Below are positions 3,435-33,161 of a stretch of DNA of 35,645 bases, in pieces. The stretch is from assembly GCA_029820295.1 (NCBI GenBank), contig JALGVA010000041.1, forward strand, positions 1-35,645. Direction: 5' to 3'. Each line of letters opens with the position of its first letter. Position 1 is the stretch's first letter. A program made the position numbers and the translations under genes. The stretch comes from Candidatus Zipacnadia bacterium. Lineage in GTDB: Bacteria > Armatimonadota > Zipacnadia > Zipacnadales > UBA5352. The notes beneath the pieces are model-generated. The model was not told the DNA's origin and made no database searches. It worked only from the letters and a program-made list of their open reading frames with translations.

Positions 3435-3472
3435 CGGCGGACCTCCTGCGGCTCGTGCTCGACGCGCGCCGG

Positions 3473-3499: not shown

Positions 3500-3535
3500 C
3501 GTTCGGCGTACATGACCCAACGGCGGGTGGGGATG

Positions 3536-3576
3536 GAGTTCGCGCAGCGAACTCCCAAGAGAAGCCCGGGGCTTCT
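3536..3576. repeat. Two adjacent perfect hairpins
   Basis: The first is GAGTTCGC-GCA-GCGAACTC (3536-3554). The second is AGAAGCC-CGG-GGCTTCT (3560-3576). Both have perfect stems and 3-base loops, only 5 bp apart, between two divergent promoter-like elements. They could be a regulator operator, a REP-like element or a structured RNA end. The first stem carries GCGAAC on both strands, so it also resembles half of the promoter element. Confidence 0.55.
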
Positions 3577-3747
3577 GCATGGAACCTGACGCCTGCGTAC
3601 GGCCCACGGCGCCTGCGTCCGCCGCCCGTTCGCAGATCCGACCGAGAGCGAGACGCGCATGGCGCACAGCCCGCCAGGAGACGGGGTGGCGCGCGCACCG
3701 CGCGCGACGGGGGCCGAGGCCGCACGGCCGGTGCCGAGTCGCCTGCA

Positions 3748-3774
3748 GAAGGCCACACGTCCCCGTACGTCGAA
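3748..3774 (+). promoter_or_regulatory. Bipartite promoter-like element for the NodB operon
   Basis: GAAGG (3748-3752), 18 bp, CGAA (3771-3774), ending 45 bp before the start codon at 3820. Spacing and half-site sequences are identical to those at 855-881 and 33199-33225. Confidence 0.45.
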
Positions 3775-3819
3775 TCTGCCCGCCGCCCGCGAGAGGCGGA
3801 GCAGCATTCGGAGGCAGCC

Positions 3820-5259: not shown

Positions 5260-5293
5260 CGCGCGGCCGGCGTCGTGCGCACGAGAGAGGCGA

Positions 5294-5902: not shown

Positions 5903-7692
5903 TACGCATGCCGACCGTCCGTGTCGTGCCCGACTGCTTCACCGTGAACCAGCGCTGCGACGTGCGCGTGGAGATCGACGCCGGGCGGGAGCTGCATCCC
6001 GGCGCCGAGATCGAGGTGCAGTTCCCGCAGTCGTGGACCATGGACCGCTGCGCGAGCTTCACCAAGCAGTACCAGACCGATGACCCGGGCGCGGGCGAGT
6101 TCCTGCTGGTGCACGTGCCCGGCGAGGAGTGCACGTTCGAGGTGCAGGTCGAGCAGCGCGATTTCGACACCGGCAGCGAGATGTCGCGCCACGGCCGGCG
6201 TATCTACGCGACGCTCAGCGACGGCGTCGCGCCCGCGGGCAAGCCGATCGTGGTCGAGTGGCGCAACACCATGTCCTCGCGCCGCGCCGAGGTCGAGCAG
6301 GTGCACGTGGCCATCGATGGCGAGCGCATCGAGCCGCTGCCGGAGATCGTGACCGTCCCCGCCGACGAGGCGCGCGTCCGCGTCATCGCGCCCTCGGCGG
6401 TCGCGCCGGGTCAGCCCTTCGAGGTGCTGATCGTCTCGCTCGACCCGTACGAGAACCCCTCGCGCACGCTCCACGAGGGCGATGTCCTGCTCGGTCCGGA
6501 GGATGAGCCGCTGGGCGGGCCGTTGACTTTCCATGGGACCTGCCGGGTGACGGTCGCACTCGCGGAGGAGGGCGTGCATCGGCTCAGCTACCGCGGCAGG
6601 CTCAGCAACCCCATTCGCGTCACGACCAAGCCGCGTGGGCCGTACTGGGGCGACATCCACATCCACACGCGCTGGTCGCACGACGCCATCGGGCGCTTCC
6701 CCTACGAGTATGCGCGCGAGGTCTCGGGCCTCGACTTCGCCGCGGTCGCCGACCACGCCGAGAGCGCGATCCTGGGCTGGGAGAAGCTGGTGGCGATGGC
6801 GAATGAGGCGAATGAGCCGGGGCGATTCGTGACGCTGGTGGCCTACGAGAACGGGCTCGGGGCGCCGTCGGGGCACCACAACACCTACTACCTGGGCGCG
6901 GAGGGGCGCTGCTGGCTCAAGCCCGAGTTCGAGGGCGACATCGAGAAGCTCAACGCGATGATCCCGGCGGAGCAGGCGATGAGCCTGCCGCATCATAGCG
7001 CGATTTCGTTCGGCCGCGGTCCGAAGGGCGGGACCGTGGACTTCAGCAAGACCGACCTGGCGCACTCGCCGGTCATCGAGATCTACTCGCACCACGGTCA
7101 GAGCGAGCGCTACGCGCCCGACCACGTGAACGCCTACGAGTTCAACCGCTGGCATAAGGCCGGCGAGCGCACCAACCGCTCGATACCCGGGCACTTCGCG
7201 CAGGACGCCTGGCGCATGGGCAAGCGCCTGGGGGTGATCGCCTCCTCCGACGACCACTACGGGCAGGGCGGCCTGGACTTCGAGGGCATCGCCGGCGTCT
7301 TCGCCGACGAGCTGACCCGCGAGGCGATCTGGCACGCGATCCGCGCTCGGCAGTGCTACGGCACCACCGGCGAGCGCATCCTGCTCGACCTGTCGGTCAA
7401 CGATACACCGATGGGCCAGGAGACGATCGCGCGCCCGGGCGATGCCCTGGCCATCCGCATCGAGGTACACGGGACGGATCTGCTCTCGCGCATCGAGCTG
7501 ATCCGCATGGACGCGAGCGGTGAGTTCACGACCGTTCTCGAGGAGCGGCCGTACGAGCTTGACTTCGACACGACGGTCGCCGAGGCGTTCGCCGGGCCGG
7601 TGATGTATTACGTGCGCGCGCAACAGGAGAAGATGATCCAGCACCGCGCGGTGCTGGCGTGGTCGAGCCCGATCTGGGTCGATTCGGCCTGA
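5899..7692 (+). CDS. DUF3604 / PHP-type metallohydrolase
   Basis: A 597-aa protein. Residues 1-245 form beta-rich sandwich-like regions. The C-terminal half is a PHP-fold hydrolase of the DUF3604 type. The metal-binding motifs are GDIHIHT (His254, His256), ADHAE (Asp285-His286), LPHHS (His365-366) and SSDDH (Asp451-His453). These suggest a di- or trinuclear metal site cleaving a phosphoester or related bond; the true substrate is unknown. No signal peptide is visible. Start choice: ATG 5899 overlaps the upstream stop by 4 bases. ATG 5908 in the same frame is 11 bp after AGGAGG (5891-5896) and may be used instead; it changes only three residues. It is the last gene of the NodB operon and ends 32 bp from a convergent stop. 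Confidence 0.85.
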   Translation: MIRMPTVRVVPDCFTVNQRCDVRVEIDAGRELHPGAEIEVQFPQSWTMDRCASFTKQYQTDDPGAGEFLLVHVPGEECTFEVQVEQRDFDTGSEMSRHGRRIYATLSDGVAPAGKPIVVEWRNTMSSRRAEVEQVHVAIDGERIEPLPEIVTVPADEARVRVIAPSAVAPGQPFEVLIVSLDPYENPSRTLHEGDVLLGPEDEPLGGPLTFHGTCRVTVALAEEGVHRLSYRGRLSNPIRVTTKPRGPYWGDIHIHTRWSHDAIGRFPYEYAREVSGLDFAAVADHAESAILGWEKLVAMANEANEPGRFVTLVAYENGLGAPSGHHNTYYLGAEGRCWLKPEFEGDIEKLNAMIPAEQAMSLPHHSAISFGRGPKGGTVDFSKTDLAHSPVIEIYSHHGQSERYAPDHVNAYEFNRWHKAGERTNRSIPGHFAQDAWRMGKRLGVIASSDDHYGQGGLDFEGIAGVFADELTREAIWHAIRARQCYGTTGERILLDLSVNDTPMGQETIARPGDALAIRIEVHGTDLLSRIELIRMDASGEFTTVLEERPYELDFDTTVAEAFAGPVMYYVRAQQEKMIQHRAVLAWSSPIWVDSA

Positions 7693-7724: not shown

Positions 7725-10700
7725 TCAGTAAGCCGGGTAGGTCCGCAACAGGCGCGTGCCCGGGCCGGGAACCTCGACCTCAAGCTCCGTGGCGCCGGCC
7801 GCGAGAATCTCCCCGCTGAGCAGGTCGATCACCCGCGTCGGCTCCTCGAAGCGCAGCGTCTCCGTGCGCGTGACCGCGGCGTGCAGGGCGATCAGGTTGC
7901 GGCTCACGTAGCTCGGCTCCACGCCGTCCACGCGCACGCGTACGCCTGCGTCCCGGCAGATGCGCTTGACCAGCGTGGGCGAGAGCAGCGGTCCGGCCGA
8001 CCAGACGCTGGTCCACTCGTCGAAGCGCCGCACCGCCAGCCCGGGCAGATCGGTGCCCTGCCACGTCCCCAGCACCTCGATGCCCTCGCGCTCGGGCGCG
8101 AACACCGGGCCGATGTCGATGCCCGGCTGTCGGTTCTCCCCGGCGGGGATGTCCGCGAGCCATGGGTGAGCTGCGTCGGGCTCGATGATCCACGGCCGCA
8201 TCTCGTCGATCTCCCGGAAGTCCATCCCGGTCAGCTCGGAGATGCGCGCCACGTCAAGGTCGCCGGCGATGTAGCCCGGCGCGTAAAACCACACCAGCGT
8301 GCGGCCATCGGACTGCAGCTCGTCGCGGATGTACGCGCGCTCCTCGTCGGTCATGTGGAAGCAGTTGAGGAAGAAGTAGGCGCGGTGCCTGGGCACGAGC
8401 CCGGCGACGACGTCGTCGAGCAGGTAGACGCGCCACGGCGCGCCCACGCGCTCGAAGGTCGCCTTCTGGCGGTAGACCAGCCACTGCATGGCCTCGATCT
8501 CGTGGCTCAGGTAGGCCGCCGGGGTGCCCTCATCGACCACGACCGCGATGCCCTCGGGATCGGGCGAGCGGTCCCACTCGATCCACTGATCGGCAATCTC
8601 GCGCAGTTGGCCGATGACCTGCCCCTGGCGCGGGTCGTCGGCGATCCAGCCGTTGCTGAAGTCGTACCAGCGCACCGCGAGGCCCTTGGTGGCGCTGGTG
8701 GCGAAGGCGCGCCGAAGCTGGCTGATAGTGCCGGTGAGGTGCTCGGGAGCGCCGTGAGCGCGCTGGCGCGGGTCGGTTACCACGTGGGTGCGCAGATCGG
8801 CCTCCATGGCCCACAGTTTGCCGTGGGCGAGGACCGAGCCGGTGGCGCTCATGATGGTGGTGGGCTCGCCGACCGAACGTAGCGAGTAGTCGAAGGGCGA
8901 GAGCAGGAAGTCGCACAGGTCGGAGTTGATGACCCGCGACAGCGCCATGTGCCCCGAGTCACCGGCCCGACGCGCGCCGCCCAGCATGGTGATCACGTAG
9001 CCGTAGTAGGTCCCGGCGAGCGCCTGGCCGTTGCTGGCCTCCTTCACGATGCCGAAGTAATGCAGGATGCCGTCGGCCATTACGTCCTGGAAGAAGCGGT
9101 AGAAGTCGATGACGTAGCGCGAGGTGCGCGGGTCACGGAAGAGCATGTGGTCGGCACTGTCGCGCTGCGCAACCGACGGGATCCGCGCGTCCTCGAAGGT
9201 GACCTGCGGCTGCTGCCACGCCGCTTGCAGGGCCTCGACGTCATCCGCGTACTCGCGGCGCAGCCACGCGCGGAACTCGCTCTGCATCGGAGCCGAGTAG
9301 TCGGTGGGCTCGAACGGCCCGACCGAGCCCCAGTGCTGCCACTCCCACGAGACGCCCGAGGCGACCAGGTAGCCGATCACGCGGGTGGCGTAGGGCATCG
9401 AGCGGCAGTGCCCGACGAAGCGGCGCACCGCCTCGCCCGCCTCCTCCCGCCACACCTGCGACGCGAGCGAGATCACGGGGGCCGCGGCCTGGTAAAGGCC
9501 GACGTCGGTGCTGCCCGACTCGGTCTGCGTCAGCTCTTCCGGGTGGTTGGGCAGCCACCACTGCTGATGTCGCCCCTCCAGCGTGAACTGCGGGATGACC
9601 AGCGCGTCGGGGTCGAGGTTGAGCAGTTGCAGGATCTTCGCGTCCCACGCGCTGTAGTTGTAGGTGCCGGGGCCGGTCCAGCCGATGTCCTCGGCGTCGA
9701 GGAAGTAGATGTGCACGCCGGCGTTCGCCATGTTGGTGATGCGCCCGGCGCCGACACGCAGCTCGACGTAGTGCATGAACGGGTCGGGCTGACCGTCGAT
9801 GAACAGCGTAGGGGTGCCGTGGTAGCGCCGCACCTGGATCTCGCGTCGGCTCTCGGTCATCCCCGGCGCGCGCACCTCCAGCGATCGTACTCCCCGCACC
9901 GGCACAGTCGCGCCCTCGTCGTCGGTGTACTGTGTGTGCGGGAAGCCCAGCGCGATCTGGTAGGTGCCCGACTGCAGGAAGCGCGAGGTGCGCACGGTGA
10001 TCGGCCCCAGCCGCACGTGCTCGTCGCCGTCCTGCTCGCCGGCCGGGATCGGGCTCGTGGTGGTCGCGACCGGGTAGGTCCAGGCCATGATCTCGCCACC
10101 GTCGCGCATGAGGGCCAGCCGCAGCGGCGCGGTCTGTGCAGTCCGGGGGAGCCGATCGATCACCGCCGACACGCTGAGGTCTTCGCCGGCGACGATCTGC
10201 GCGGGCGCCTGGACGGAGATCAGCGTGATCTGCTCGCGCGGGCCGGCGTAGGTGTAGGGCACCTGGCCCCACGGCAGCGCCCCGCCCGGCGCAATCACCT
10301 GCGCCGCCGGCCAGCCGGCGTCGTCGAAGTCAGGATCGCTCCAACCCTCGGGGGCCTGGCCGACGGCCCGCCACGAGTCATCGCTCAGCACTGCAAGCGA
10401 GCCGCCGTCCCACAGCATCCACGCCTCGAACAGCAACCCCTCCGCGCTGGTGATGTCGCGCGCCTCGATGGCGATGACGTTCGTACCCTGCACCAGCGTC
10501 TCGGTGAGGTCCACGGTCTCAGCGTCGCGCCAGCCCTCCGCGTTGTCGTCGCGCGCGACCTCGACGCCGTTGACCCACATGACGTAAGTGTTGTCGGCGG
10601 TGACCTGCGCAACGGCGCCGGTCAGCGTCCCGGGATCGACCGGCAGGTCGAAGCTGCGGCGGAAGCAGGCCGTGGCCTCGTCCTGCCCGGCGGTCGCCTC

Positions 10701-11699
10701 GGCCCAGATCCACAATGCCTGCCAGCTCTCCATCGGCCGCTCCCATCCGGGTTCGAGGTCGGTGAGGTGGTGCATGCGCACGTCGTCCCACCACAGGCTG
10801 AAGCGCCCGCCGCGCGCGCGCAGCGTCAGCTCCGCCTCGGCCGCCGGCGCGGGCACCTCGAGTTCGCCCGTGAGGTGGGTGCGGCCCTGGTCATCGATGC
10901 GCGTCTGCGTCACGGTCACCGACCGGCCTTCAAGCGCCTGGCCGAACACGTCGAAGAACGCCACGTCCGCTGCCAGCTCCCGGGTCCCGCCCTCCTGATG
11001 AGCCACGGTCGCGTCGAAGGCGTAGCTGCCCGTGCGGTCGATCGGCACGCGGACGCTTACGGTGGCAAGCGGCCGGTTCGGCACTGTCGCCACCATGAGC
11101 GAGCGGTCGCCTTGTGCGCAGTGGTCGGCACTCCAGGCCGCGTCGGCGGCGTCGGCTGTCCAGCCGTCGGGCATGCCGTCGCCGTCGAAATCGTCCTCGA
11201 AGCCCGCGTTGGGCACGACGCCGGGGTCGCCGGAGGTGAAGCGGACGTAGTCGAGCGCGATCTCCGCCCCCGCGGAGTTGAGGATGTCGAGGCGGATCTG
11301 ATGGATGACGCCGGTCCACTCGGGCACGGCGTCCATGCGCACGCGGTAGACGCGCGGCTGGTCGGTGGCGTAGACCGTGTGGCGCGACTTGACGGCATCG
11401 GTGAAGCCGGTGTCTTCGTGGCGGAAGAAGATCTCCCCGCTGCCGGTGATGGTGCTGGACACGCGGAACTCGATCACCGGGAATGCCTCCGCCTGGATGT
11501 CCAGCACCGGCGAGGCGAGCATGCAGTCGTACTCGGTCACCCCGCGCAGCATGCCGCCGGTGACCTCGACGCTGGCAAAGTTGCCGGGCGTCCAGCCCTC
11601 GAAGTCGCCATCGGTGTCGAAGCGCCAGATGATCTCATCGGCGTGCACGGTGCACAGCCCAAGCGCAAGCAGACCCGCGATGCAGATGAGTGTGCGCAT
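7725..11699 (-). CDS. Secreted multidomain glycoside hydrolase, GH42-like
   Basis: A 1,324-aa exported protein. Signal peptide MRTLICIAGLLALGLCTVHA (cleavage after Ala20). Residues 21-155 are a jelly-roll-like module. A calcium-type loop DDFDGDGMPDGW (169-180) opens a second carbohydrate-binding-like module to about 310. Residues 325-480 (WIWAEAT ... ADNTYVMWVNGVEV) look like the N-terminal module found in alpha-L-rhamnosidases and related enzymes. A TIM barrel follows from about 620 to 1050, with acidic candidates near GVSWEWQ (785) and LWAMEADLR (966). From about 1050 the sequence resembles the class-I-amidotransferase-like trimerisation domain of GH42 beta-galactosidases. The substrate is uncertain; the family assignment is by fold logic, since the usual GH42 Asn-Glu pair is not clear. 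It lies 18 bp downstream of the arylsulfotransferase-like gene, in the same operon. The start has GGAGG 5-6 bp upstream. Confidence 0.65.
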   Translation of the reverse strand: MRTLICIAGLLALGLCTVHADEIIWRFDTDGDFEGWTPGNFASVEVTGGMLRGVTEYDCMLASPVLDIQAEAFPVIEFRVSSTITGSGEIFFRHEDTGFTDAVKSRHTVYATDQPRVYRVRMDAVPEWTGVIHQIRLDILNSAGAEIALDYVRFTSGDPGVVPNAGFEDDFDGDGMPDGWTADAADAAWSADHCAQGDRSLMVATVPNRPLATVSVRVPIDRTGSYAFDATVAHQEGGTRELAADVAFFDVFGQALEGRSVTVTQTRIDDQGRTHLTGELEVPAPAAEAELTLRARGGRFSLWWDDVRMHHLTDLEPGWERPMESWQALWIWAEATAGQDEATACFRRSFDLPVDPGTLTGAVAQVTADNTYVMWVNGVEVARDDNAEGWRDAETVDLTETLVQGTNVIAIEARDITSAEGLLFEAWMLWDGGSLAVLSDDSWRAVGQAPEGWSDPDFDDAGWPAAQVIAPGGALPWGQVPYTYAGPREQITLISVQAPAQIVAGEDLSVSAVIDRLPRTAQTAPLRLALMRDGGEIMAWTYPVATTTSPIPAGEQDGDEHVRLGPITVRTSRFLQSGTYQIALGFPHTQYTDDEGATVPVRGVRSLEVRAPGMTESRREIQVRRYHGTPTLFIDGQPDPFMHYVELRVGAGRITNMANAGVHIYFLDAEDIGWTGPGTYNYSAWDAKILQLLNLDPDALVIPQFTLEGRHQQWWLPNHPEELTQTESGSTDVGLYQAAAPVISLASQVWREEAGEAVRRFVGHCRSMPYATRVIGYLVASGVSWEWQHWGSVGPFEPTDYSAPMQSEFRAWLRREYADDVEALQAAWQQPQVTFEDARIPSVAQRDSADHMLFRDPRTSRYVIDFYRFFQDVMADGILHYFGIVKEASNGQALAGTYYGYVITMLGGARRAGDSGHMALSRVINSDLCDFLLSPFDYSLRSVGEPTTIMSATGSVLAHGKLWAMEADLRTHVVTDPRQRAHGAPEHLTGTISQLRRAFATSATKGLAVRWYDFSNGWIADDPRQGQVIGQLREIADQWIEWDRSPDPEGIAVVVDEGTPAAYLSHEIEAMQWLVYRQKATFERVGAPWRVYLLDDVVAGLVPRHRAYFFLNCFHMTDEERAYIRDELQSDGRTLVWFYAPGYIAGDLDVARISELTGMDFREIDEMRPWIIEPDAAHPWLADIPAGENRQPGIDIGPVFAPEREGIEVLGTWQGTDLPGLAVRRFDEWTSVWSAGPLLSPTLVKRICRDAGVRVRVDGVEPSYVSRNLIALHAAVTRTETLRFEEPTRVIDLLSGEILAAGATELEVEVPGPGTRLLRTYPAY

Positions 11700-11717: not shown

Positions 11718-12818
11718 TCAGATGCGGTCGAGGAGCGGCCGGCAATACTCCGGGGAGTAGCGCAGGCAGCGGTAGATGCTGCCCAGCGCGCCCTCCTTGC
11801 GGTACGGGTTGACGAAGTCCCAGACGATCTCGCCCGCACGCGTCACCTCGAACAAGTGCGCCTTGTTGCCTTCGCAGATGAGCGTATCGCCGTTGGGCAG
11901 CCGCTGGCCGCCGGAGATGTAGGGCGAGAAGAAGTCCGTCGGGTCCTGCGCGCGGTACTCCCAGACGATGCCGTTGTCCTCGTTCTCGACGGCGAGCGGA
12001 TCGACCTCGATCACGCGCGAGAAGCCGCGCAGCGTGCCGTTGTCGAAGAGCATGATATTACCGTTCGGGAGCATGTGCGGCTTGTGCTGGCCGTCGATCA
12101 CGCCCGGCCCCCATGCCCACACGATCTCGCTGCTGCCGCGGTCGATCACGCCGATCACGTCCAGGCTGCGGTAGGAGAAGACGATGTTGCCCGGCCGGAA
12201 GCGCTCGTCGCCCTCGCCCCGGGTCTTCTCCCAGGTCGCGTTCGGCGGGATGATCTGCAGCGTGTTGTTGTGGGCCCAGTCGAAAACGAACTCCTCGTGG
12301 ATGCGCGTCCGGACTTGGTCCCAGGCATCGGCGGACAGCAGCGCCTCCAGCTCCTCGAGGTGGTGCTCGCCGTGCCACTCCCACAGCAGCTCCTGGTTGA
12401 CGTCGATCTCGACCATGTAGGGGCAGCGCTTCAGCCCGCGGCCGAGCTGCGGCCACATGTGATCGCGGATGGTGTGCAGGAGCATGTGCCCGTCGTCGAA
12501 GACCTGGTAGTCATGATCGATGCGGCAGTGGTACCACCACAGCACGTTGCTCTGCGGGTCGAGGCGGCGCACGCCCGCCTTCGCAATGTCCGACCGGTCG
12601 CGCGTGGGGTAGAGCAGGTCGCCGTCGGGCAGCAGCCGGCAGAACGACTGCAGTGCGGTCTCAACGTACCAGCGGTGCACGATCTGCCCGTCCATGTCGA
12701 CAAGCAGGATCTCGCCCTTGCCGTCCGGCGACCGGCGCGGGTCCTCCCAGCTCTCGCAGTAGAGCGTGTAGCCCGGCCACGCGCGCTCGCGGTCGTGTGT
12801 GATGACTCCGGTCTCCAT
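11718..12818 (-). CDS. Arylsulfotransferase (ASST)-like beta-propeller protein
   Basis: A 366-aa protein with repeated propeller blades (GEILLVDMDGQIVHRW, PNGNIMLFDNG, LPNGDTLICEG). The core motif FDWAHNNTLQIIP (residues ~200-212) and HKPHMLPNGN match the bacterial arylsulfotransferase family, in which a histidine carries sulfate between phenolic donors and acceptors. Known ASST enzymes are usually periplasmic, but no signal peptide is visible here: the protein begins METGVITHDRERAWPG. A cytoplasmic location, or a role as a structural propeller without sulfotransfer, is therefore possible. ATG 12818 has GGAGGT 8 bp upstream. It is the leader of a two-gene operon with the GH42-like protein, which suggests a shared glycan substrate, possibly sulfated. 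Confidence 0.72.
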   Translation of the reverse strand: METGVITHDRERAWPGYTLYCESWEDPRRSPDGKGEILLVDMDGQIVHRWYVETALQSFCRLLPDGDLLYPTRDRSDIAKAGVRRLDPQSNVLWWYHCRIDHDYQVFDDGHMLLHTIRDHMWPQLGRGLKRCPYMVEIDVNQELLWEWHGEHHLEELEALLSADAWDQVRTRIHEEFVFDWAHNNTLQIIPPNATWEKTRGEGDERFRPGNIVFSYRSLDVIGVIDRGSSEIVWAWGPGVIDGQHKPHMLPNGNIMLFDNGTLRGFSRVIEVDPLAVENEDNGIVWEYRAQDPTDFFSPYISGGQRLPNGDTLICEGNKAHLFEVTRAGEIVWDFVNPYRKEGALGSIYRCLRYSPEYCRPLLDRI

Positions 12819-12868
12819 CAGTCGGGACCTCCCAGCCGTCCGGTCGCATGGGGCTCAGCGCACCGTGC

Positions 12869-12895
12869 TTCGCCGCCGGCGCGCGATCGCCCTGC
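12869..12895 (-). promoter_or_regulatory. Bipartite promoter-like element for the ASST/GH42-like operon
   Basis: On the minus strand GCAGG (12895-12891), 18 bp, CGAA (12872-12869), ending 50 bp before the start at 12818. It is back-to-back with the plus-strand element at 12909; the two AGG halves are 13 bp apart. Confidence 0.45.
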
Positions 12896-12908
12896 GTGGA
12901 CGCGCAGG

Positions 12909-12935
12909 CAAGGTAAAGGGCCCCGCGCCGGCGAA
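12909..12935 (+). promoter_or_regulatory. Bipartite promoter-like element for the PL4 operon
   Basis: CAAGG (12909-12913), 18 bp, CGAA (12932-12935), ending 31 bp before the start at 12967. The CGAA half is also the loop of a small inverted repeat, GCCGG-CGAA-CCGGC (12927-12940), which could be a regulator site overlapping the promoter. Confidence 0.42.
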
Positions 12936-12966
12936 CCGGCCGTCAGCACTGGAGGTGCCGGGCACG

Positions 12967-14811
12967 ATGCGCGTCATGCTGGCGCTGGGCGTGGTCATGA
13001 CAGCAATGATGGGCGCGTTGGCCGACGGCCTGGAGCTGCGCGACGACGGGACGCGTTGGACGGTGCGTGGCGAGGCCATCGAGGCTGTGATCGACCACGA
13101 GACCAACTACGTGCGTTCGCTGCGCCTGCCCGACGGCCCGGAGCTGATGGCCGAGGGCGGCGGCTACTGGGACATCGTCTACGACTGTGAGGCGCGCGGG
13201 CTCACCGGACAGTACAGCCGCTTCGGCCACCACGTGCCCGCACGCGCCGAGGTGCTGCGCGCGGATGACGGGCTGGTGCACCTGTGCGTGCGCACCGACC
13301 CGGAGCGCCAGGACCGCGGCAACGTCTTCCACGCTCCGCTGGTGCAGGAGATGCACTACGTCTTCGAGCGCGGCCTGCCGGGCTTGTACCTCTTCGTGGT
13401 CATGCGCCATCGCCCGGAGCAGGCCGACCTGACCATCGTCCAGGCGCGGCACGTGCTGCGCTGCAGGCACGAGGTGTTCGATGGCTACCAGGTCAGCGCG
13501 GAGCGCTTCGGGGCGCTGGCGCCGTGGGATGAGTTGCAGCAGGCGCAGACGATCGGCGACGCCACCGTCCGGCTCGCCGATGGGCGCATCTTCACCAAGT
13601 ACAAGCTGTCACACGCCCAGGCCGAGGGGCCCGCCTGGGGGCTGCTGTCGAGTGGGAGCGGGCTCGGGCTGTGGTGCATCGAGGCCAGCCCGGAATATCG
13701 CACCGGCGGCCCCACCAAACAGGACCTGGCGGTCCAGGATGACGTGCTGCTGCTCAACGAACCGCTCAACGGGCATTGCATGGGCGCCCTCACCGGGCAG
13801 GCCATCTCCGGCGCGTGGCAGAAGGTCTACGGACCGTGGCTTTACTACGTGAACGGCGCCGCGTCGCAGCCAGCGCTCTGGGGCGACGCGATGGCGCGCG
13901 CGGATCTCGAGCACGAGCGCTGGCCCTACGCATGGTGTGCGGAGACGCTCGGGGAAGAGATCTATCCACTGGCGCGCGGCGTCGTCAGCGGGCGCATCCT
14001 GACCGCCGATGGTGAGCCGGCCGCAGGCGCGTGGGCGATCCTGGGCGGAGCCGACCCAAACTGGCAGGCGCAGAGCGACGGCTACCGCTTCTGGGCGCGC
14101 TGCGGCGCCGACGGACGCTTCCGTTTGAGCGCCGTGCGGCCGGGAGAGTACACCCTCTACGCCTGGCGTGAGGGCAACCCGCTCGAGGCCAGGCGTGATG
14201 GAGTCGCGGTTGCCGCAGGCCAGACGACCGACCTCCAGGTGCTCAGCCTGCCCGCCTGGGGCGAAGACATCCTGTGGCAGATCGGGGAGCCGGACCGCAC
14301 GGCGCGCGAGTTCCGCCGCGGGGACGACTTCCGCGCGTGGAACATCCTGCGCTTCTACCCGCAGGACTTCCCGGATGACGTAACCTTCACGGTCGGCGCC
14401 AGCGATGAGCGCGCGGACTGGAACATCGCACAGCCGGGGCCGAGCCCGCTCGACGGCGGCGGGCGCAAGCAGCACCCGTGGGCAGTGATATTTGAGCTGG
14501 ACGCCCCGACCGATGCCGTGCTGACGCTGGGCGTGGCCGACGCGAGCTACCATCCGCCGGCAGGCATCGTCATGCAGGTCAATGGTGTGGCGCGCGAGGA
14601 GTTCTGGCTCGAGCCAGGGGACTCGGCTGCCTACCGCAGCGGGGCGTCAGGGCATTACGAGGTACGCGATGTGCCGATCCCCGCGAGCCTGCTGCGCGCG
14701 GGCGTCAACCGCATCGAGCTGACGCTGCCGCACCTCGGGTCGTGGGTGATGTACGACTTCGTCGCACTGCGCCGCGCCGGCGAGACAGCATACGGAGGCG
14801 ATGCGCGATGA
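12967..14811 (+). CDS. Secreted rhamnogalacturonan lyase, polysaccharide lyase family 4
   Basis: A 614-aa exported enzyme predicted to cleave the rhamnose-galacturonate backbone of pectic rhamnogalacturonan I by beta-elimination. Signal peptide: MRVMLALGVVMTAMMGALA, about 19 residues. The catalytic beta-sandwich (20-340) has the PL4-like motif IFTKYKLSHAQAEG (208-221). A fibronectin/carboxypeptidase-regulatory-like domain follows (about 345-425, VVSGRILTADGEPAAGA ... RPGEYTLYAW). A C-terminal carbohydrate-binding domain is introduced by the PL4 hallmark ILWQIGEPDRTAREF and ends in a beta-strand-rich region. All three domains of the family are present and the length is normal. ATG 12967 has GGAGGTG (12951-12957) 9 bp upstream; an in-frame extension to 12799 is not coding. 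It is the first gene of an operon; its stop overlaps the start of the next gene (ATGA, 14808-14811). Confidence 0.87.
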   Translation: MRVMLALGVVMTAMMGALADGLELRDDGTRWTVRGEAIEAVIDHETNYVRSLRLPDGPELMAEGGGYWDIVYDCEARGLTGQYSRFGHHVPARAEVLRADDGLVHLCVRTDPERQDRGNVFHAPLVQEMHYVFERGLPGLYLFVVMRHRPEQADLTIVQARHVLRCRHEVFDGYQVSAERFGALAPWDELQQAQTIGDATVRLADGRIFTKYKLSHAQAEGPAWGLLSSGSGLGLWCIEASPEYRTGGPTKQDLAVQDDVLLLNEPLNGHCMGALTGQAISGAWQKVYGPWLYYVNGAASQPALWGDAMARADLEHERWPYAWCAETLGEEIYPLARGVVSGRILTADGEPAAGAWAILGGADPNWQAQSDGYRFWARCGADGRFRLSAVRPGEYTLYAWREGNPLEARRDGVAVAAGQTTDLQVLSLPAWGEDILWQIGEPDRTAREFRRGDDFRAWNILRFYPQDFPDDVTFTVGASDERADWNIAQPGPSPLDGGGRKQHPWAVIFELDAPTDAVLTLGVADASYHPPAGIVMQVNGVAREEFWLEPGDSAAYRSGASGHYEVRDVPIPASLLRAGVNRIELTLPHLGSWVMYDFVALRRAGETAYGGDAR

Positions 14812-16256
14812 TCGACGTGGTGTTCGGCTACGACGTCGAGGACGTGTACAACCCGGCGTCCGACGACGCCCTGCTGCAGATCTGCCGCATTCACGCGGAG
14901 GAGGGCGTGCCGGCTTCGATGTTCGTGGCCGCCGAGAAGGCGCGCTGCATGCGCGAGCGCGGGCGGCGCGACGTGCTCGACGCGTTGGCCGAGCATGAGA
15001 TCTGCTACCACGGGAACTACTGGGGCGACTTCCCCGAGCCCGCGACGCGCTACGGAGTGCGCCTGCCGTTCGACCAGGCGGTGGAGATGGCACTGCACGT
15101 GGAGGCGCGGGGGCTGCACGACGTGGCCGAGATCGCCGGGCAGTTCCCGGTCGCGTGGTGCTGCCATCAGGCGCAGCAGTCGCTGCCGATGCAGTATGCG
15201 ATGAAGCTGGCGGGCGTGCGCTGCTGGGCGGGTGGCCCGCGCGGGTGGGTCATGAACTGGCTGAGCTGGCCGCGCTCGAACTGCACGGTCTCCAGCCAGG
15301 GTGAGTGGAATATGGAGGCCGACCCGCTGAACCCCGATGCGGTCAAACCGCCGGCGCACCCCCAGGCCGATCTGCGTGTCGCCCAGGAGGCCTTCGAGCG
15401 CGTGGCGGAGCGGCAACCGTTCATCAGCTTCGTCGGCCATCCGGTGTGCTGGGTCACGCGCGAATGGGGCGGGCTGTGGAGCTACGCGACGCTCTTCCGC
15501 TACGGCAGCGCGGGCCGCTACCCGCGACCGCGCATCACCACGCCCGCGAAGCCGCGCACGCCCGAGGACAGCGCGGCGGCCTACGAGCACCTGCGCCTGC
15601 TGCTGCGCTGGATCAAGACGCGGACCGACGTGAACCTCACCACCTACGCGGCGCTGTGCGAGCGCGATGAGGAGCTCGGCCAGCAGTGGGTGAGCTGGGA
15701 GCAACTCGTCTCGCTCGCACGCCGCATGACGCAGGACCTCGACGCCATCGTTGACTACGGCACCAGCTTCTCGCCCGCGGACGTATGCGGGATGCTCATC
15801 TTCGCGGTGCAGTACTGCCATCATCACAATCGCTGGCCGGAGCAGGTCCCGGTGCAGCGCGTGCTCGGGCCAACCGAGGAGCCCATGCCCGGCGTCGCCG
15901 TGACCGCCGACCGGCGCAGCATCTTCGCCGGCTGCCTGGCGGCCTACGCGATCATGATGGACGACCGGCGCCTGCCGGGGAAGCTGCGCGCCAGCCGGGT
16001 GGACGTCGGCCCCGCGCAACTGCTGCATCTCGCCGCCGGGCTGGTGCTTCGCTACGAGGAGACGGGGGCCATCCCCGAGCAGGTGAGCATCGATGCGGTG
16101 CCGGTGCTGCCGGGCGTAGTGGAGACGCCGGTGATCACCGACCGGCGCTTCGGCTCAACCAACATGCCCGCCGACTTCGACCATGAGCCCCTGTGGAATC
16201 TGCTCCGCTGGCAGGCGTGGAGCTACCGCCCGGCGGTGCCGGGCAACTCGCGGTGA
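14808..16256 (+). CDS. NodB-like protein with PMBR-like repeats, metal site altered
   Basis: A 482-aa paralogue of the 3820 protein, aligning over its whole length (YDVEDVYNPASDDALL versus FDTEDYIDPISNDALL; ILGPTDEP versus VLGPTEEP). Asp9/Glu11/Asp12 of motif 1 are kept. In motif 2 the first His (His68) remains but the second is lost: HGNYW instead of HSDHH. Deacetylase activity may therefore be reduced or changed. The C-terminus has two similar repeats: SPADVCGMLIFAVQY ... RWPEQVPVQRVLGP, and GPAQLLHLAAGLVLRY ... AIPEQVSIDAVPVL. Their shared xxPEQVx register is pseudomurein-binding-repeat-like. No signal peptide is seen. GGAGG lies 9 bp upstream. Translation is coupled to the PL4 lyase by a 4-base overlap, and the next gene follows after 10 bp. 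Confidence 0.72.
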   Translation: MIDVVFGYDVEDVYNPASDDALLQICRIHAEEGVPASMFVAAEKARCMRERGRRDVLDALAEHEICYHGNYWGDFPEPATRYGVRLPFDQAVEMALHVEARGLHDVAEIAGQFPVAWCCHQAQQSLPMQYAMKLAGVRCWAGGPRGWVMNWLSWPRSNCTVSSQGEWNMEADPLNPDAVKPPAHPQADLRVAQEAFERVAERQPFISFVGHPVCWVTREWGGLWSYATLFRYGSAGRYPRPRITTPAKPRTPEDSAAAYEHLRLLLRWIKTRTDVNLTTYAALCERDEELGQQWVSWEQLVSLARRMTQDLDAIVDYGTSFSPADVCGMLIFAVQYCHHHNRWPEQVPVQRVLGPTEEPMPGVAVTADRRSIFAGCLAAYAIMMDDRRLPGKLRASRVDVGPAQLLHLAAGLVLRYEETGAIPEQVSIDAVPVLPGVVETPVITDRRFGSTNMPADFDHEPLWNLLRWQAWSYRPAVPGNSR

Positions 16257-16266
16257 GGTGAGGCGC

Positions 16267-18537
16267 ATGAGCAGGGCTATCGTGGCACTTGCGCTGATCG
16301 TGGCGTCTCTGGTGCCAACGGCCGCCGAGGTCATCTTCCACGAGGACTTCGAGCAGGCCGCCGACACGGATCTGCTGCGCAACATCTGGGGTGACCAGCC
16401 GACGGACCTGCTCGTGAACGGGGCGGAGGCGGGCATCGGCGTGGACGGCAGCGCGGGGGCACACTTGCGCGCCGGCTTCGGACCGACTGAGCACCAGCAG
16501 TCGTACTGGGCCTACGTGCTCGCGGAGCCGATGCCGCTGGTCGAGGGACTGGAGACCATCGCCTTCCGCGTGAAGAGCGACTCGGTGGTGCGGCTGAAGG
16601 TTGGGATATCTCCCTTCGGCTTCATCTACCACGGACCGCAGAGCACGGGCAGCGGCGAGTGGGAGACGGTCACGCTCGAGGATGCCTGGGCGGAGCTGTC
16701 CGCGTGGTGCGAGGGGGGCGACCGCGACCCGCGCGAGGGCTTCGTCAGCAGCATCATCTTCTCGGTCGCAGACACGGACAACATCACGGCCGACGTGGTC
16801 ATCGACGACCTCGTATTCGGGGCCGCGGAGGGAACCGGCGCCATGATCGATCGCGAGCGCTTCGAGCGCCAGGTCGCGCGCACGCGCATCAGCGTGGTCA
16901 CGCAACTGTGGAGCGATGAGGGCCGCACGGTGGAGGCGGTCGAGCGGCTCATCGACGAGGCGGCCGCCGACGGCGCCGACCTGTGCCTGCTGCCCCAGGA
17001 GTGCGTGAAGACCGACGGCGAGCCGATCCCGGGCCCGATCAGTGAGGCCATCGCAGCCAAGGCGGCCGAGCACTCGATGTACGTCGTCGGCTGCATTCGT
17101 GAGACTGAGGGCGAGCGCACCTATGTCACGAGCTTCCTGTGCGACCGTGAGGGGCAGATCGTCGGCAAGTACCGCAAGTCGCACAAGCTGCCGGACGAGG
17201 ACATGGACCTTGGCGATGAACTGCCGGTGTTCGCGACCGACATCGGCGAGGTCGCCATGCGCATCGGCACCGACCGGCACTTCGTGGACATCGATCACGT
17301 GTACACCGCCAGGGGCGCGCGTATCATCCTGTGGTCGCAGATGCCCGAGCCGGTCGATGATGAGTACCTGCAGGATGCGCCGGTGCTGGGCCGCGCCATC
17401 GACTACCGCGTGTTCTACGCCTGCGCGCGCTACGCCAACGCGGGAGAGGGATGGATCACGAACAAGTTCCCGCCCTACCGCGGCATGCCCATCGGGCGGT
17501 CGTGGGTGGTCAATCGCGAGGGCCAGCGAATCGCCTGCACCCCGCGCACCGGCGCCGGCGTCGCGACCGCGGTCATCCCCAGAACGCAGCTTCAGGCGCC
17601 CGGTCGGGGTGCGTCCGACCGCACGGCCTTCGCCGCGCTCACCGCGCCGGTGACGCTGCCTGAGCCGCGCGAGTGGGTGAAGCGCCGGGTGCGGCTGACC
17701 GCCATCGAGAACCACGTGGCCTTCGATCAGCTCCTGTCGCTGCTGGACGAGGCGGGGGAGATGGGCAGCGACCTGGTGGTGACCTACGAGTTCGTCTGGA
17801 TTCCGCTTGCGCGTGACGGTGAGGTCAGCGAGGAGGCGGTCGCGGCGGCGGAGGCGACCGCTCGGGAGCGCCTGGCGCAGGTCGCTGCGAAGGCCCGGCA
17901 GTGGAGCATGTATGTGCTGGTCGCCGGCGTGATCGAGAGCCAGGAGATCAACGAGGGCATCCTCTTCGACCGGCAGGGAGACGAGGTGGGGCGCTACCGC
18001 AAGATCGTCTCGACCTACGACGAGCAGATCGTCGGCACCGAGACGCCCATCCTGGAGACCGACTTCGGGCGCATCGGCGTGCACATCTGCGCCGACGAGG
18101 CCTTCCCCGAGATCGACCGGTGCTACGGCGTGCTGGGAGCGGACATCATCGCGGTGCCGACGCAGAGCTGGGGCCCGGACGCGCTGCACCGCGACCTGCG
18201 CGACCTCGCCCGCATTATGGACGCGGGCGCCTTCCTGGTCGAGGCCACGCACAGTGGCACCGAGGCGCGCCATCGCAGCCTGATCGCCGACCCGGCGGGC
18301 GCCATCGTGGCCGCCTCGGCGCTGAACCGCCCGGGTCTGGTCAGCGCGGTTGTTGACCTGGACCACGACCGCCCGCGCCGCTACATTCGCGAGTGGACGC
18401 CGCACGAGCCCGGCGGCTACCTGCCGCAGTACCAGCCCACTGAGTTTCCTGCGGTCGCGAATGATCTGCAGGACACGATCCGCCGTCAGCGCCGCCCGGA
18501 ACTCTACCAGGTGCTGGCGCCGGCTGCGGAGGAGTGA
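16267..18537 (+). CDS. Secreted protein with two nitrilase-superfamily domains, first one inactive-looking
   Basis: A 756-aa protein. Signal peptide MSRAIVALALIVASLVPTAA. Residues 21-190 are a jelly-roll-like module (HEDFEQAADTDLLRNIWG ... VVIDDLVF). Two carbon-nitrogen hydrolase domains follow. Domain 1 (about 205-440) has Glu245 (LLPQEC) and Lys304 (GKYRK), but the nucleophile position reads IGTD (Gly334), so no cysteine. Domain 2 (about 475-725) has Glu508, Lys579 (GRYRK) and Cys608 (HICADEAF), a complete Glu-Lys-Cys triad. Family members hydrolyse amides, nitriles or N-acyl groups; an exported member could cleave amides on amino sugars or glycan linkers. ATG 16267 follows GAGGTGAGG (16255-16263) and is the last gene of the PL4 operon; its stop is 6 bp from the convergent propeller gene. 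Confidence 0.82.
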   Translation: MSRAIVALALIVASLVPTAAEVIFHEDFEQAADTDLLRNIWGDQPTDLLVNGAEAGIGVDGSAGAHLRAGFGPTEHQQSYWAYVLAEPMPLVEGLETIAFRVKSDSVVRLKVGISPFGFIYHGPQSTGSGEWETVTLEDAWAELSAWCEGGDRDPREGFVSSIIFSVADTDNITADVVIDDLVFGAAEGTGAMIDRERFERQVARTRISVVTQLWSDEGRTVEAVERLIDEAAADGADLCLLPQECVKTDGEPIPGPISEAIAAKAAEHSMYVVGCIRETEGERTYVTSFLCDREGQIVGKYRKSHKLPDEDMDLGDELPVFATDIGEVAMRIGTDRHFVDIDHVYTARGARIILWSQMPEPVDDEYLQDAPVLGRAIDYRVFYACARYANAGEGWITNKFPPYRGMPIGRSWVVNREGQRIACTPRTGAGVATAVIPRTQLQAPGRGASDRTAFAALTAPVTLPEPREWVKRRVRLTAIENHVAFDQLLSLLDEAGEMGSDLVVTYEFVWIPLARDGEVSEEAVAAAEATARERLAQVAAKARQWSMYVLVAGVIESQEINEGILFDRQGDEVGRYRKIVSTYDEQIVGTETPILETDFGRIGVHICADEAFPEIDRCYGVLGADIIAVPTQSWGPDALHRDLRDLARIMDAGAFLVEATHSGTEARHRSLIADPAGAIVAASALNRPGLVSAVVDLDHDRPRRYIREWTPHEPGGYLPQYQPTEFPAVANDLQDTIRRQRRPELYQVLAPAAEE

Positions 18538-18543: not shown

Positions 18544-20418
18544 TCAGTCGAGCCCCAGATCGAAGCTCCACACGTGCGAGCCGCTCGCGTAGTAGAGGCG
18601 GCCATCGTGGATGACCGCGCCTGCGCTGATCCCGCGCGGCGGGTCGGCGAGCTTCTCGTGTGCGAAGGTTCCGGGCGTGATGCGCACGATGGCCGCGGTG
18701 AAGGTCGCGTAGATGTTGCCGTCGGGTCCGAGCACCAGCGTCTGCCGCGGCAGACCACCGTAGGCCGACAGGTCCTCGCGATGGACCACCTCGCGGCTCT
18801 CCGGGTCGAAGACGAAGAAATGCGCGCCGCTGGCCAGCCCGTAGACCAGCCCGTCCGGCCCGATCTCGATGCTGAACACCTCGGACGCGCCCTCGACCGG
18901 GTTGGTGCGGAAGATGACCTCGCGGCTCTCCAGGTCGAGCAGGTAGAGCGTACCCTCCTGTCGCTGGGGGTGCCCGCCGCCGGGGGTCGCGATGCTCGTG
19001 CCGCCGACCAGCGTGCCGTCGGGGAGGAAGCGCATGGTGATGGTGCTCTCGTACGGGATCACGGCCTCGTGGGTGAGCAGCTCGGTCTCGCCGGTCTCGC
19101 GGTCATGGATCGCCAGCCCGCCGCCGCACAGCCCGTAGCCCGCGAAGCCGCCGGATACCACCCAGCGTTGCGTCGCGTCGGTGACACACGCGCGCGGGCG
19201 GCACAGGTCCGACTTGTACTGCGCGATCGCGACGGGGTTCGGGGTCTCCTCGTCGCCCGGCTGCCAGGGCGCGGCCGGATCGTAGCGCCAGATGTGGCCG
19301 CCGGCGTAGGACGCGGCGTAGAGCATGTCGCCCGCGGCGGTCATGGCGCACATATTGCCGCCGCCGATGGTCGGCACGGGGCCGAGGTCGGTCAGCACGT
19401 CGGCCTGCGGATCATACGAGACCAGGTGCATCGGGTGGCAGGTCGAGGCGTAGATGCGGCCGTCGGGCCCCTCGGCGATCGACGTGATGCTCGCCCCCTC
19501 GGATTCGTAGTCAATCGCGAAGCTCTCGGTCTCACCCTCGGGACGCGTCACGGTCACGGTCTTGTTGGGCAGATCGATGGAGACCTGAGTACCATCGGGC
19601 AGCCTGCCCGAGCGCTGCCCCCAGCCGATCGCGCCGGTGGGCTGGGAGGCGGGCACCTGGTCGGCGGGGATCTCCTCAGCCTCGCCTGCGTGCAGGCGCC
19701 ACCAGGTATCTCCGGCCCTGCCGTAGACCTGCCCGTCGGCCCCCACCTGCACATGGCCGCTGCCCAGCGGGCGGTTGTCCTCACTCGGGATCTGGATGCG
19801 CTCACCGGTCGTGACGTTGAAGGCAACCACGTTCTGCCGCGCAGTGCCGATGCCGGCGTAGAGCCAGCCGGCGTCATCGGGTACCAGCGTATTGACGTAG
19901 TGCTCGGCGTCGTCAAGCCGCCCGTAGTCGCGCATCTCCTGCGTCTCCGGATCGTACGACACGAGGCGGCAGCTCGGGTAGGTGCCGGCGTAGATGAGGC
20001 CCCCGGGGCCGTCCACCATCGCCGAGCCGGTCACGCAGTTCTCACCGGGCGCCGGGCGGCCGTTGAAGAGCCACTCGCGATCCTGCGGGGCGAACTCGAG
20101 CAACACATTGCCCGCGAAGGTGTAGAACCGCCCGTTGTTGCTCATCAGCGAGGCGAAGGGGGCGGAGTTGGGCACGCCCTCCGGGTAGTAGAACTGCTCG
20201 GTCTCCCGGCTGTCAACGTTCACGAGCAGCATCCACCCGCGCGGGCTCTGATCGAGGCTCAGGCACAGCGCCATGCCCTGCCCGTCCGCGCCTTCGAAGA
20301 CCACCATCCCGCGGCTCTCGGCCACCGCCGCGCCCACGCCGTGATCGATGAAGCGCGCATCCTGCGCCCACGCCCCGCATGTCATCACCATCAGTCCCAT
20401 GATCGCCAGCGTTCTCAT
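18544..20418 (-). CDS. Secreted beta-propeller protein
   Basis: A 624-aa exported protein with signal peptide MRTLAIMGLMVMTCGAWA (cleavage before QDARF). The mature part is built of repeated blades of the form GxDGxVYGxAxGxxxFxFDPESRE, with recurring signatures such as YDPETQE, YDPQADV and FDPESRE. This is typical of seven- or eight-bladed propellers of the SMP-30, PQQ or lactonase-like group. I see no catalytic or quinone-binding motif that would fix a function, so sugar-lactone hydrolysis or glycan binding are only guesses. The start at 20418 overlaps the upstream stop (ATGA at 20415-20418), so it is translated together with the preceding secreted Cys-rich protein. The ribosome site AGAGGA lies about 10 bp upstream. 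Confidence 0.72.
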   Translation of the reverse strand: MRTLAIMGLMVMTCGAWAQDARFIDHGVGAAVAESRGMVVFEGADGQGMALCLSLDQSPRGWMLLVNVDSRETEQFYYPEGVPNSAPFASLMSNNGRFYTFAGNVLLEFAPQDREWLFNGRPAPGENCVTGSAMVDGPGGLIYAGTYPSCRLVSYDPETQEMRDYGRLDDAEHYVNTLVPDDAGWLYAGIGTARQNVVAFNVTTGERIQIPSEDNRPLGSGHVQVGADGQVYGRAGDTWWRLHAGEAEEIPADQVPASQPTGAIGWGQRSGRLPDGTQVSIDLPNKTVTVTRPEGETESFAIDYESEGASITSIAEGPDGRIYASTCHPMHLVSYDPQADVLTDLGPVPTIGGGNMCAMTAAGDMLYAASYAGGHIWRYDPAAPWQPGDEETPNPVAIAQYKSDLCRPRACVTDATQRWVVSGGFAGYGLCGGGLAIHDRETGETELLTHEAVIPYESTITMRFLPDGTLVGGTSIATPGGGHPQRQEGTLYLLDLESREVIFRTNPVEGASEVFSIEIGPDGLVYGLASGAHFFVFDPESREVVHREDLSAYGGLPRQTLVLGPDGNIYATFTAAIVRITPGTFAHEKLADPPRGISAGAVIHDGRLYYASGSHVWSFDLGLD

Positions 20419-21794
20419 TGCGTCTCTCTCCTCTGCAGCACGTCGGCGGTGTGCGACCGCCCCGGTATCTCGTACGGCCCTGCGCGCGTCCACTCGGCTT
20501 CGTCCTCGGCCAGTAGCCCCAGCACATCCTGGACGGTGCCCTCGCTGATGCGCATGATCGCCCGGATGGCGATCGATGCGCCCGGCGCGACCGGCCCGTG
20601 GCCCTCCCACGTCGCGCCGCAGGCCCAGCCCTCACCGCAGACACCAGCGTTGCGCGTGAAGCCGTCAGGCATGGCGAAGGGCAGGTCGCCCTCGTTGGTG
20701 ATCCGGCCCGCGATCAGCACGCTCTCGTGGTGCGGGTAGAGCCACCAGGTGGTCTTCACGTCACGCTCCTGGGTCTCGGCACGCCAACCGCCCCAGTACG
20801 TCTCCTCGGCTGAGGTCGCCGGCAGCGCCAGCCCCTCGGCAGCCACGTCCGCGTCGCGGTGGCGCACCATCAGGCTACCGGCCTCCTGCACAATCTCCAC
20901 CTGCGCCGGCTCTTGAGGGAAGTCGGCGAGGTAGCGCGTCAGTAACGCCTCCGGGTCGTTCGCCATGAAGTATAAACGTCCCTCGCAGGTGGTGGTGTTC
21001 GTCGGCTCATCGTAGCAGCCGCTGAAGTCCGGGTTTGCGTGCAGGCAATCGTGCCAGCCTTGCGACAGGCCCGAGCACTTCGGCCAGCCCCACGCGGTCA
21101 GCCACTTGCCGTCGCGTGACACGCAGCCGATGAGCGAGTAAATCGGCCGGTCCGTGCTGGCGCCCCAGAACGCCTCAGGCTGCCCACCGTGTCGCCGCCA
21201 GATCGGCACGTAGACCTGCACCCACGGCGGATCATTGCGCTCAGGTGTGGTCGTGTAGCGGTCCCAGCGCGTATCGGGGAATCGGTTGGTCTCGCCCATG
21301 ACCGTCAGGCCGCGCAGCGTGAAGATGAAGCAGCGCGAGACGAAGTCCTCGAAGAAGTCGCCGCGGTTGCCGAACGCCTCGCTCTCGTGAAGCTGCCAGC
21401 AGGCGTTGACGCTGCGCAAGCGCCGCACGGCCTCGGGATCATCGCCCGTGGCCTCGACGCGGAAGCGCACCGCGCCCGGCTCCGGGATCAGGCTGGTGGT
21501 CACCGCCACGCCGCCCATGGTGTGATGCAGCACCAGCGTGCCGTCATCCAGCATTTCGCCCTCGCCGACGCCCGCGTCCCCCATCTCGTAGCACCAGACC
21601 TCGCAGGCGAAGTCGTCCATGGCCGGAATGGCGATCTGCGCCATGGTGAAGGTGCGCTCGCCCTGCACGCGGTTCTCCCAGCTCAGCACCGGCGTCAGGT
21701 CCCGGGCGTCCACGGTCGCGTCAGCTCCCTCCTGGGCGAGCACCGGCGCGCATGCGCAGCACAGCACCAGGCCGACGATCATCCCACGCGTCAT
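20415..21794 (-). CDS. Secreted cysteine-rich protein of unknown function
   Basis: I do not recognise this 459-aa protein. It has a signal peptide (MTRGMIVGLVLCCACAPVLA, cleavage before QEGADA). The mature chain has 11 cysteines, unusually many next to the other proteins here, which suggests disulfides. It is rich in tryptophan and beta-strand-like segments, with a later stretch (SYTRN-like region near DGFTRNAGVCGEGWACGA) carrying a close pair of cysteines. It could be a carbohydrate-acting beta-sandwich, but no family motif supports that. Start: ATG 21794 with a weak GGTGAG 7 bp upstream; an internal ATG four codons later is a possible alternative. It is the leader of a two-gene operon with the propeller, overlapping it by four bases. 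Confidence 0.6.
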   Translation of the reverse strand: MTRGMIVGLVLCCACAPVLAQEGADATVDARDLTPVLSWENRVQGERTFTMAQIAIPAMDDFACEVWCYEMGDAGVGEGEMLDDGTLVLHHTMGGVAVTTSLIPEPGAVRFRVEATGDDPEAVRRLRSVNACWQLHESEAFGNRGDFFEDFVSRCFIFTLRGLTVMGETNRFPDTRWDRYTTTPERNDPPWVQVYVPIWRRHGGQPEAFWGASTDRPIYSLIGCVSRDGKWLTAWGWPKCSGLSQGWHDCLHANPDFSGCYDEPTNTTTCEGRLYFMANDPEALLTRYLADFPQEPAQVEIVQEAGSLMVRHRDADVAAEGLALPATSAEETYWGGWRAETQERDVKTTWWLYPHHESVLIAGRITNEGDLPFAMPDGFTRNAGVCGEGWACGATWEGHGPVAPGASIAIRAIMRISEGTVQDVLGLLAEDEAEWTRAGPYEIPGRSHTADVLQRRETQ

Positions 21795-33114: not shown

Positions 33115-33161
33115 GGCCTGCACCCCAGTGATACGGCGCCATCGGCACTGCGGCGTCAGTG

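Follow-up and report, generated by a model that had tools for sequence, protein, structure and literature searches.

The tandem nitrilase-fold protein listed first in Table 1 is encoded in a 35,645-nucleotide stretch of Candidatus Zipacnadia bacterium DNA (hereafter the window), and its first nitrilase domain has lost the catalytic Cys in all orthologues compared and is nevertheless the best-conserved segment of the chain. We give about an even chance to the explanation that the protein is a secreted, glycan-directed, amidase-type C-N hydrolase with a built-in pseudoenzyme partner domain. The open reading frame starts with the ATG at 16267, ends with the stop codon at 18535-18537 and encodes 756 amino acids with zero internal stops. 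An earlier sequence-only reading of this DNA had numbered six key residues (E245, K304, G334, E508, K579 and C608), and all six letters are correct in the translation. In a Pfam search the protein matched CN_hydrolase alone (E 9.8e-45), in two stretches, and no CBM family was found at E up to 1. The model of the whole chain, built from a 4-row alignment, is weak (mean pLDDT 64, pTM 0.39), and the domain interface and the placement of Glu245 are for this reason unreadable from it; residues 206-451 of this weak model align to the nitrilase structure 3ivz (Z 24.5) and residues 467-705 to 3wuy (Z 21.3). Both domains fit the PF00795 profile and the alpha-beta-beta-alpha fold, in agreement with the tandem of nitrilase folds first proposed from the letters.

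Table 1. Features of the tandem nitrilase-fold gene and its upstream neighbour (positions in the window)
Feature	Position	Strand	Basis or remark
Upstream gene	14808..16256	+	ATG picked by the analyst; longest ORF from 14742
Whole gene, tandem nitrilase-fold, A family	16267..18537	+	756 aa plus stop; translation, Pfam, orthologues
Signal-peptide-like N terminus, residues 1-20	16267..16326	+	Sequence, hydropathy, orthologue ORFs
Beta-sandwich (jelly-roll) module, CBM-like, residues 21-186	16327..16824	+	Model and structural matches
Nitrilase-fold domain 1, residues 205-445	16879..17601	+	Profile and fold matches, orthologue alignment
Codons Gln244 (probable canonical catalytic-Glu position) and Glu245 (Glu of the earlier reading)	16996..17001	+	Motif comparison
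Codon Gly334 at the catalytic Cys position, followed by Thr335 and Asp336	17266..17268	+	Orthologue alignment
Nitrilase-fold domain 2, residues 472-705	17680..18381	+	Pfam, profile and fold matches, orthologue alignment
Codon Cys608, predicted nucleophile	18088..18090	+	Kept in 15/15 orthologues

A search for the same domain order in other genomes, which the sequence-only reading had proposed, identified orthologues (family A) in at least 16 genomes, plus a decayed copy in genome G006, and the match tables place them in eight families of the phylum. Two near relatives of the window protein, both from metagenome-assembled genomes of Candidatus Zipacnadia, show 76% (L038) and 72% (L039) identity. 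A paralogous tandem family (family B), ~30-36% identical to A, is present in at least 17 genomes, of which nine also have family A, and the window's own genome encodes both tandems, the B copy (L002) being located on contig C69 at 3289-4926 on the minus strand. These genome counts are lower bounds, because few candidates were scored per genome (three in the phylum search of 291 genomes and two in the wider search of 397 genomes); the B-family gene of G004, for example, was missed in the former and caught in the latter. Among the 397 genomes, 27 match at E 1e-25, and all 27 are within this phylum. An insensitive scan of 84,980 species genomes with six 8-residue patterns recovered three relatives, all from Armatimonadota or Zipacnadia, so tandem forms may also occur in other phyla; none was found in three scans of viral contigs. 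Zipacnadia have been described from sediments, with extracellular carbohydrate enzymes in 39 of 64 genomes (PMC10290634).

The N terminus of the window protein (MSRAIVALALIVASLVPTAAE) is signal-peptide-like, as judged by hydropathy and by eye. Signal-like starts are seen in 12 of the 16 A-family ORFs; three others are truncated by a contig edge, and in L019 the N-terminal stretch is out of frame. By the same judgement, ~8 of 17 B-family proteins start in this way. The N-terminal module, modelled alone, is a beta-sandwich (pLDDT 85.7, pTM 0.85), and its top structural matches are mostly carbohydrate-binding modules, including the N-terminal part of the Xyn10B xylanase (Z 13.5), CBM86 (13.2), CBM11 (12.9) and CBM22 (12.3). 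Other matches have no link to carbohydrates (the flagellar sheath protein FlaA1 and a complex I assembly protein, both at Z 11.9). The modelled module therefore has the jelly-roll beta-sandwich of carbohydrate-binding modules, and both the signal-like start and the jelly-roll module of the sequence-only reading are borne out at this level. The module may bind carbohydrate; a shared fold proves no function.

In the superfamily, Cys serves as the nucleophile and Glu as the base, and Lys stabilises the intermediate. Gly334 takes the place of the Cys in 16 of 16 A-family domain-1 sequences, each from a separate genome, and Cys is found in none. The sequence-only reading had named a Cys in most orthologues, or a frameshift or assembly artefact, as what would speak against its Cys-less domain 1; with Cys in 0/16, an intact ORF and the same Gly in 16 separate genomes, neither was encountered. 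Lys304 and Glu311 are kept in 16/16. The claim that domain 1 keeps Glu245 and Lys304 hence stands for the Lys, and the Glu probably lies one residue past the canonical place. There are seven steps from Asp238 to Glu245 in domain 1, and six from Asp502 to Glu508 in domain 2. Five single-domain relatives (L113, L134, L141, L144 and L146; 5 of 52 tree rows) show [LF]PEE at the catalytic-Glu place, at which the A-family domain 1 shows LPQE (8/16) or LPME (8/16). Because these five relatives read PEE and domain 1 reads P[QM]E, it is probable that the catalytic Glu was replaced by Gln/Met244 and that Glu245 corresponds to the second Glu of PEE. On the other hand, the HMMER alignment opens a one-residue gap and thereby pairs Glu245 with the Glu of mouse Nit2, and the five PEE rows form a clade together with a sixth row (L148, reading LPEF) that the tree does not support as the sister group of domain 1. 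Judged by its residues, domain 1 does not contain the Glu-Lys-Cys triad and is dead (G334, Q244), though K304 and E311 remain. Gly334 in 16/16, together with Gln or Met at the Glu place, suggests that domain 1 belongs to PF00795 by fold and descent, and not because it works by the established mechanism.

Domain 1 might still catalyse a reaction in a different way, with Cys246 or Ser/Thr335 (among others) acting as the nucleophile, which we regard as very improbable. Cys246 is indeed present in 16/16 A-family sequences, and position 335 is Ser in 9/16 or Thr in 7/16 (Thr in 10 and Ser in 3 of 13 B-family rows). However, a Cys directly after the catalytic Glu is also found in triad-bearing single-domain rows (e.g., L005, L006, L061, L064 and L072), so that Cys246 is nothing special, and the B-family rows have Pro at position 246. 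Moreover, such a route would have to work in a domain whose canonical Glu is probably lost as well.

In domain 2, by comparison of the same orthologues, Glu508 is conserved in 16/16, Lys579 in 15/15 and Cys608 in 15/15, so the Glu-Lys-Cys triad is complete, as the sequence-only reading had it. For these counts, L038, L039 and L040, which duplicate the contigs of L009, L012 and L022, respectively, were each counted once; L022 is split by an N run, and its out-of-frame part L022b was omitted from the domain-1 counts and L022a from those of K579 and C608; L019 stops short of K579. Position 586, where a fourth catalytic Glu would be expected in domain 2, is Glu in 10 of 15 sequences, Leu in 3, Ala in 1 and Lys in 1; its equivalence, like that of 311 in domain 1, was assigned by spacing (K+7) and not from a reliable structure. 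The residue two places before Cys608 is Arg in 9, His in 4, Lys in 1 and Trp in 1. Among 55 single-domain nitrilases from the same genomes, a set that leans to ordinary members because it consists of best Pfam matches and hand-picked loci and is not random, Glu-Lys-Cys is present in 53, one sequence is truncated and one has Ser for Cys. The last (L089, on contig C187 of G013) is a single-domain nitrilase-fold protein with the motif VMISYD at the site of the replaced Cys.

Within family A, domain 1 has a mean pairwise identity of 0.715 (91 pairs), compared with 0.630 in domain 2 and 0.646 in the tail (78 pairs each) and 0.468 in the beta-sandwich (66 pairs), averaged over 14 A rows (L022 and L041 left out). 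No other segment of the A-family protein is as well conserved as domain 1, which is therefore no decaying relic. The dN/dS values of three A-family pairs are 0.03, 0.27 and 0.16 in domain 1 versus 0.08, 0.26 and 0.20 in domain 2. It has to be mentioned that the relative in G006 (L027, contig C25) is a decayed A-family gene; matches cover its sandwich, the beginning of domain 1 and the C-terminal tail, and most of both nitrilase domains was not found. The conservation, the dN/dS values, the lack of stops and the presence of Gly334 in all 16 orthologues nevertheless lead us to reject the explanation that domain 1 is a functionless decaying duplicate, or that a sequencing or assembly error accounts for the missing Cys, and we give it next to no probability. 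That the dead domain 1 is the best-kept segment in family A suits a working role, of whatever kind. In family B the order is reversed, with domain 1 at 0.581 and domain 2 at 0.602 (13 B rows), and one pair has dN/dS of 0.13 versus 0.06.

The working role could mainly be that of a ligand sensor or second binding site, whose pocket would take substrate, product or a glycan fragment and switch or feed domain 2. In its favor, domain 1 is conserved more than domain 2, K304 and E311 have been retained despite the loss of Cys, and the motif windows of domain 1, chosen by hand around the catalytic places, are more conserved than its remainder (0.848 vs. 0.754, P = 0.0026). There is also a precedent in beta-ureidopropionase, in which ligand-driven control acts through subunit contacts (PMC10741476). 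However, the motif-window test passes in domain 2 as well (0.777 vs. 0.694, P = 0.012) and may therefore reflect only core packing, and no ligand is known. We thus consider this role of domain 1 rather unlikely, even if far from negligible.

Family B differs from family A in what has been lost. In the 17 sequences of its domain 1, the Cys place is occupied by Gly (11), Thr (5) or Ser (1), Glu is at the canonical place in 0/17 and Lys is kept in 16/17. In its domain 2, Glu and Cys are both kept in 17/17 and Lys in 0/17 (Pro in 13, Ala in 2 and Ser in 2 instead); a His two residues ahead of the Cys is invariant in the 17 sequences, and there is no invariant Lys. By these alignments, the full triad is absent from both domains of family B, and the Cys-less domain 1 is common to A and B. 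The loss of Lys in 17/17 suggests that such a tandem can persist without a full triad. In a tree of 118 domains, domain 1 of A groups with domain 1 of B (SH-aLRT support 97) and domain 2 of A with domain 2 of B (95). A more careful tree of 111 domains, which omits 17 long-branch or near-identical rows plus L112, L138 and L143 as duplicates, gives 99/99 and 100/99 for the same groups, with long inner branches on which the tree program issued a warning. Because the first domains group together and the second domains group together, it is most likely that the tandem and the Cys loss in domain 1 are older than the A/B split. Internal duplication as the source of domains 1 and 2 is neither shown nor rejected (AU test, P = 0.457).

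A broader scenario for both families can be put forward tentatively, and we hold it to be possible but doubtful. The non-hydrolytic pocket would have arisen before the A/B split in a mostly exported lineage, and would serve a complete second site in A; in B the second site also lost its Lys. Either the fold would have become a device for paired glycan binding or sensing, or family B would use a changed catalytic set. For such a set, the His two residues before the Cys is the obvious candidate in the alignment. In the B-family chain the triad residues that are left are divided between the domains, with Lys in domain 1 and both Glu and Cys in domain 2, and a composite active site spanning both domains could be imagined; this is unlikely, because the active sites of nitrilase-type dimers lie far apart.

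The persistence of family B bears on a further explanation for family A as well, namely that the whole protein is carbohydrate-binding or structural and that the triad of domain 2 is kept yet unused for hydrolysis. It would fit the conservation of a sister family without a full triad in either domain, and the variation at residue 586, but not the invariance of E508, K579 and C608 in every orthologue readable there, and we regard it as improbable, only slightly less so than catalysis by another route in domain 1.

Returning to the secreted hydrolase with a pseudoenzyme partner, the signal peptide would export the protein, and the CBM-like module would anchor it on carbohydrate. Domain 2 is predicted to do the chemistry by the usual nitrilase mechanism, with Cys608 as the nucleophile, Glu508 as the base and Lys579 in the stabilising role. 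Domain 1 may act as the permanent pseudoenzyme partner of domain 2, so that a dimer would be built into one chain as an internal pseudo-dimer, and its conserved pocket may have kept the ability to bind a ligand that it does not cut. Among kinases and proteases, such pseudoenzyme partners are familiar. We read domain 1 as the built-in partner of domain 2 because the monomers of the superfamily, whose site is E-K-C-E, pair at the A-surface in all members (PMC4700190), and because assembly into oligomers is required for activity, with a lid from the adjacent protomer covering the pocket (PMC13275509). In beta-ureidopropionase, the fourth Glu is positioned by loops buried in the contacts between dimers (PMC10741476). 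If domain 1 is such an obligate partner, the need of nitrilase-fold enzymes for a second subunit could be studied within one chain; a ligand-binding pocket in domain 1 would represent a non-hydrolytic use of the fold, which could be traced through the natural series of triad losses in family B.

With respect to known systems, the likeness to the PF00795 superfamily lies in the fold of both domains and in the Glu-Lys-Cys of domain 2; the difference is that there are two copies here in one signal-bearing chain, with domain 1 lacking Cys and probably Glu. The best sequence matches, though remote, include N-carbamoyl-D-amino acid hydrolase, Nit2 and PH0642-type amidases (6lei, 1erz, 2w1v and 1j31); the domain-2 profile matches 6lei at 1.3e-15, and the domain-1 profile matches 2w1v at 2.6e-18. 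Among the NCBIfam equivalogs (deaminated glutathione amidase, N-carbamoylputrescine amidase, nitrilase, formamidase and others), nine were matched and none exceeded its cut-off, the best score being 65.2 bits versus 355. Since every matched model falls below the cut-off, no substrate can be transferred from the known amidases. To our knowledge, no activity is known for any member of the family.

The single-domain PEE nitrilases from this phylum (L113, L134, L144, L146 and L141, the last also numbered L112) are high-ranking matches to domain 1, with ~40% identity for L112 and L113; they retain Glu, Lys and Cys and have no second nitrilase domain. Vanin-1 (pantetheinase, 4cyy) is a nitrilase-fold enzyme of the cell surface whose catalytic domain has an additional beta-sandwich packed against it (PMC4834066), and it is among the structural matches of domain 1 (Z 20.9, from the weak whole-chain model). 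The human protein, however, has one nitrilase domain and a C-terminal beta-sandwich, and the order here is beta-sandwich, nitrilase, nitrilase, so the 756-aa protein does not have the domain order of a vanin-type pantetheinase. The anti-phage reverse transcriptase DRT1 likewise contains a nitrilase fold within a larger protein, controlled via neighbouring protomers; its nitrilase domain has the catalytic tetrad, and a second nitrilase domain is not mentioned in the available part of that report (PMC13275509). In the open-access literature, with most subscription papers outside the scope of the search, we found no protein with a tandem, inactive or pseudo nitrilase domain, nor, in the portions of text available there, any description of a tandem whose dead partner is conserved, or of a family in which neither domain has a full triad. 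The fold, the mechanism and the module type are already known.

As for the substrate, an N-acylated or amidated sugar would be likelier than a nitrile. The acylated amino sugars named in the sequence-only reading are a guess, backed weakly by the gene neighbours. In five of the seven A-family loci scanned (the window, L043-L047 and L049; L039, L040, L048 and L050-L052 were left out), a carbohydrate-active family is encoded at most two genes away, a fraction that stands without a baseline. In the window this is a polysaccharide-lyase-4-like gene; GH127, GH29, GH123 and heparinase-like genes are beside the A-family orthologues in L044, L045, L046 and L049, and carbohydrate-active genes were not found among the scanned neighbours in L043 and L047, where the flanks were partly covered (one adjacent and one third-nearest gene in L047; three of four genes in L043). 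Gene calls outside the window came from our GC-frame script. The protein also points to a putative, so far unassigned and probably extracellular amidase in Armatimonadota.

The upstream gene of the window ends 10 bases before the ATG at 16267 (stop at 16254-16256), and this short gap suggests that the two genes may be co-transcribed; L038 has an 87% identical upstream gene at the same place. The upstream gene has zero Pfam matches and zero PDB matches, and we take its N terminus to resemble a polysaccharide deacetylase, a likeness without a tool match. It is also paralogous, at 28% identity, to the gene at 3820-5259 (+), which has no Pfam match either. A phylum-wide operon was not found: among the compared loci, L038 and L039 have the same order of genes, and the neighbours differ elsewhere, with one exception. 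The exception is the downstream gene at 18547-20610 (-), which has weak propeller-type Pfam matches and a relative at 4753-6000 (-) of L059, beside a B-family gene; the two are 53% identical over 413 aa.

Several other genes in the window were recorded. A polysaccharide-lyase-4-like protein is encoded near the nitrilase gene at 12799-14811 (+), and a GH42-like protein of 1324 aa and an arylsulfotransferase-like protein are encoded at 7728-11699 (-) and 11721-12818 (-), respectively, with the strands taken from the GC-frame script and Pfam. A DUF5693 protein (E 7.6e-137) at 32945-35293 (+) is followed by a gene at 35290-35643 (+). The latter has 53% identical relatives near a B-family gene in L054 and L057, and the copy in L054 matches polysaccharide pyruvyl transferase.
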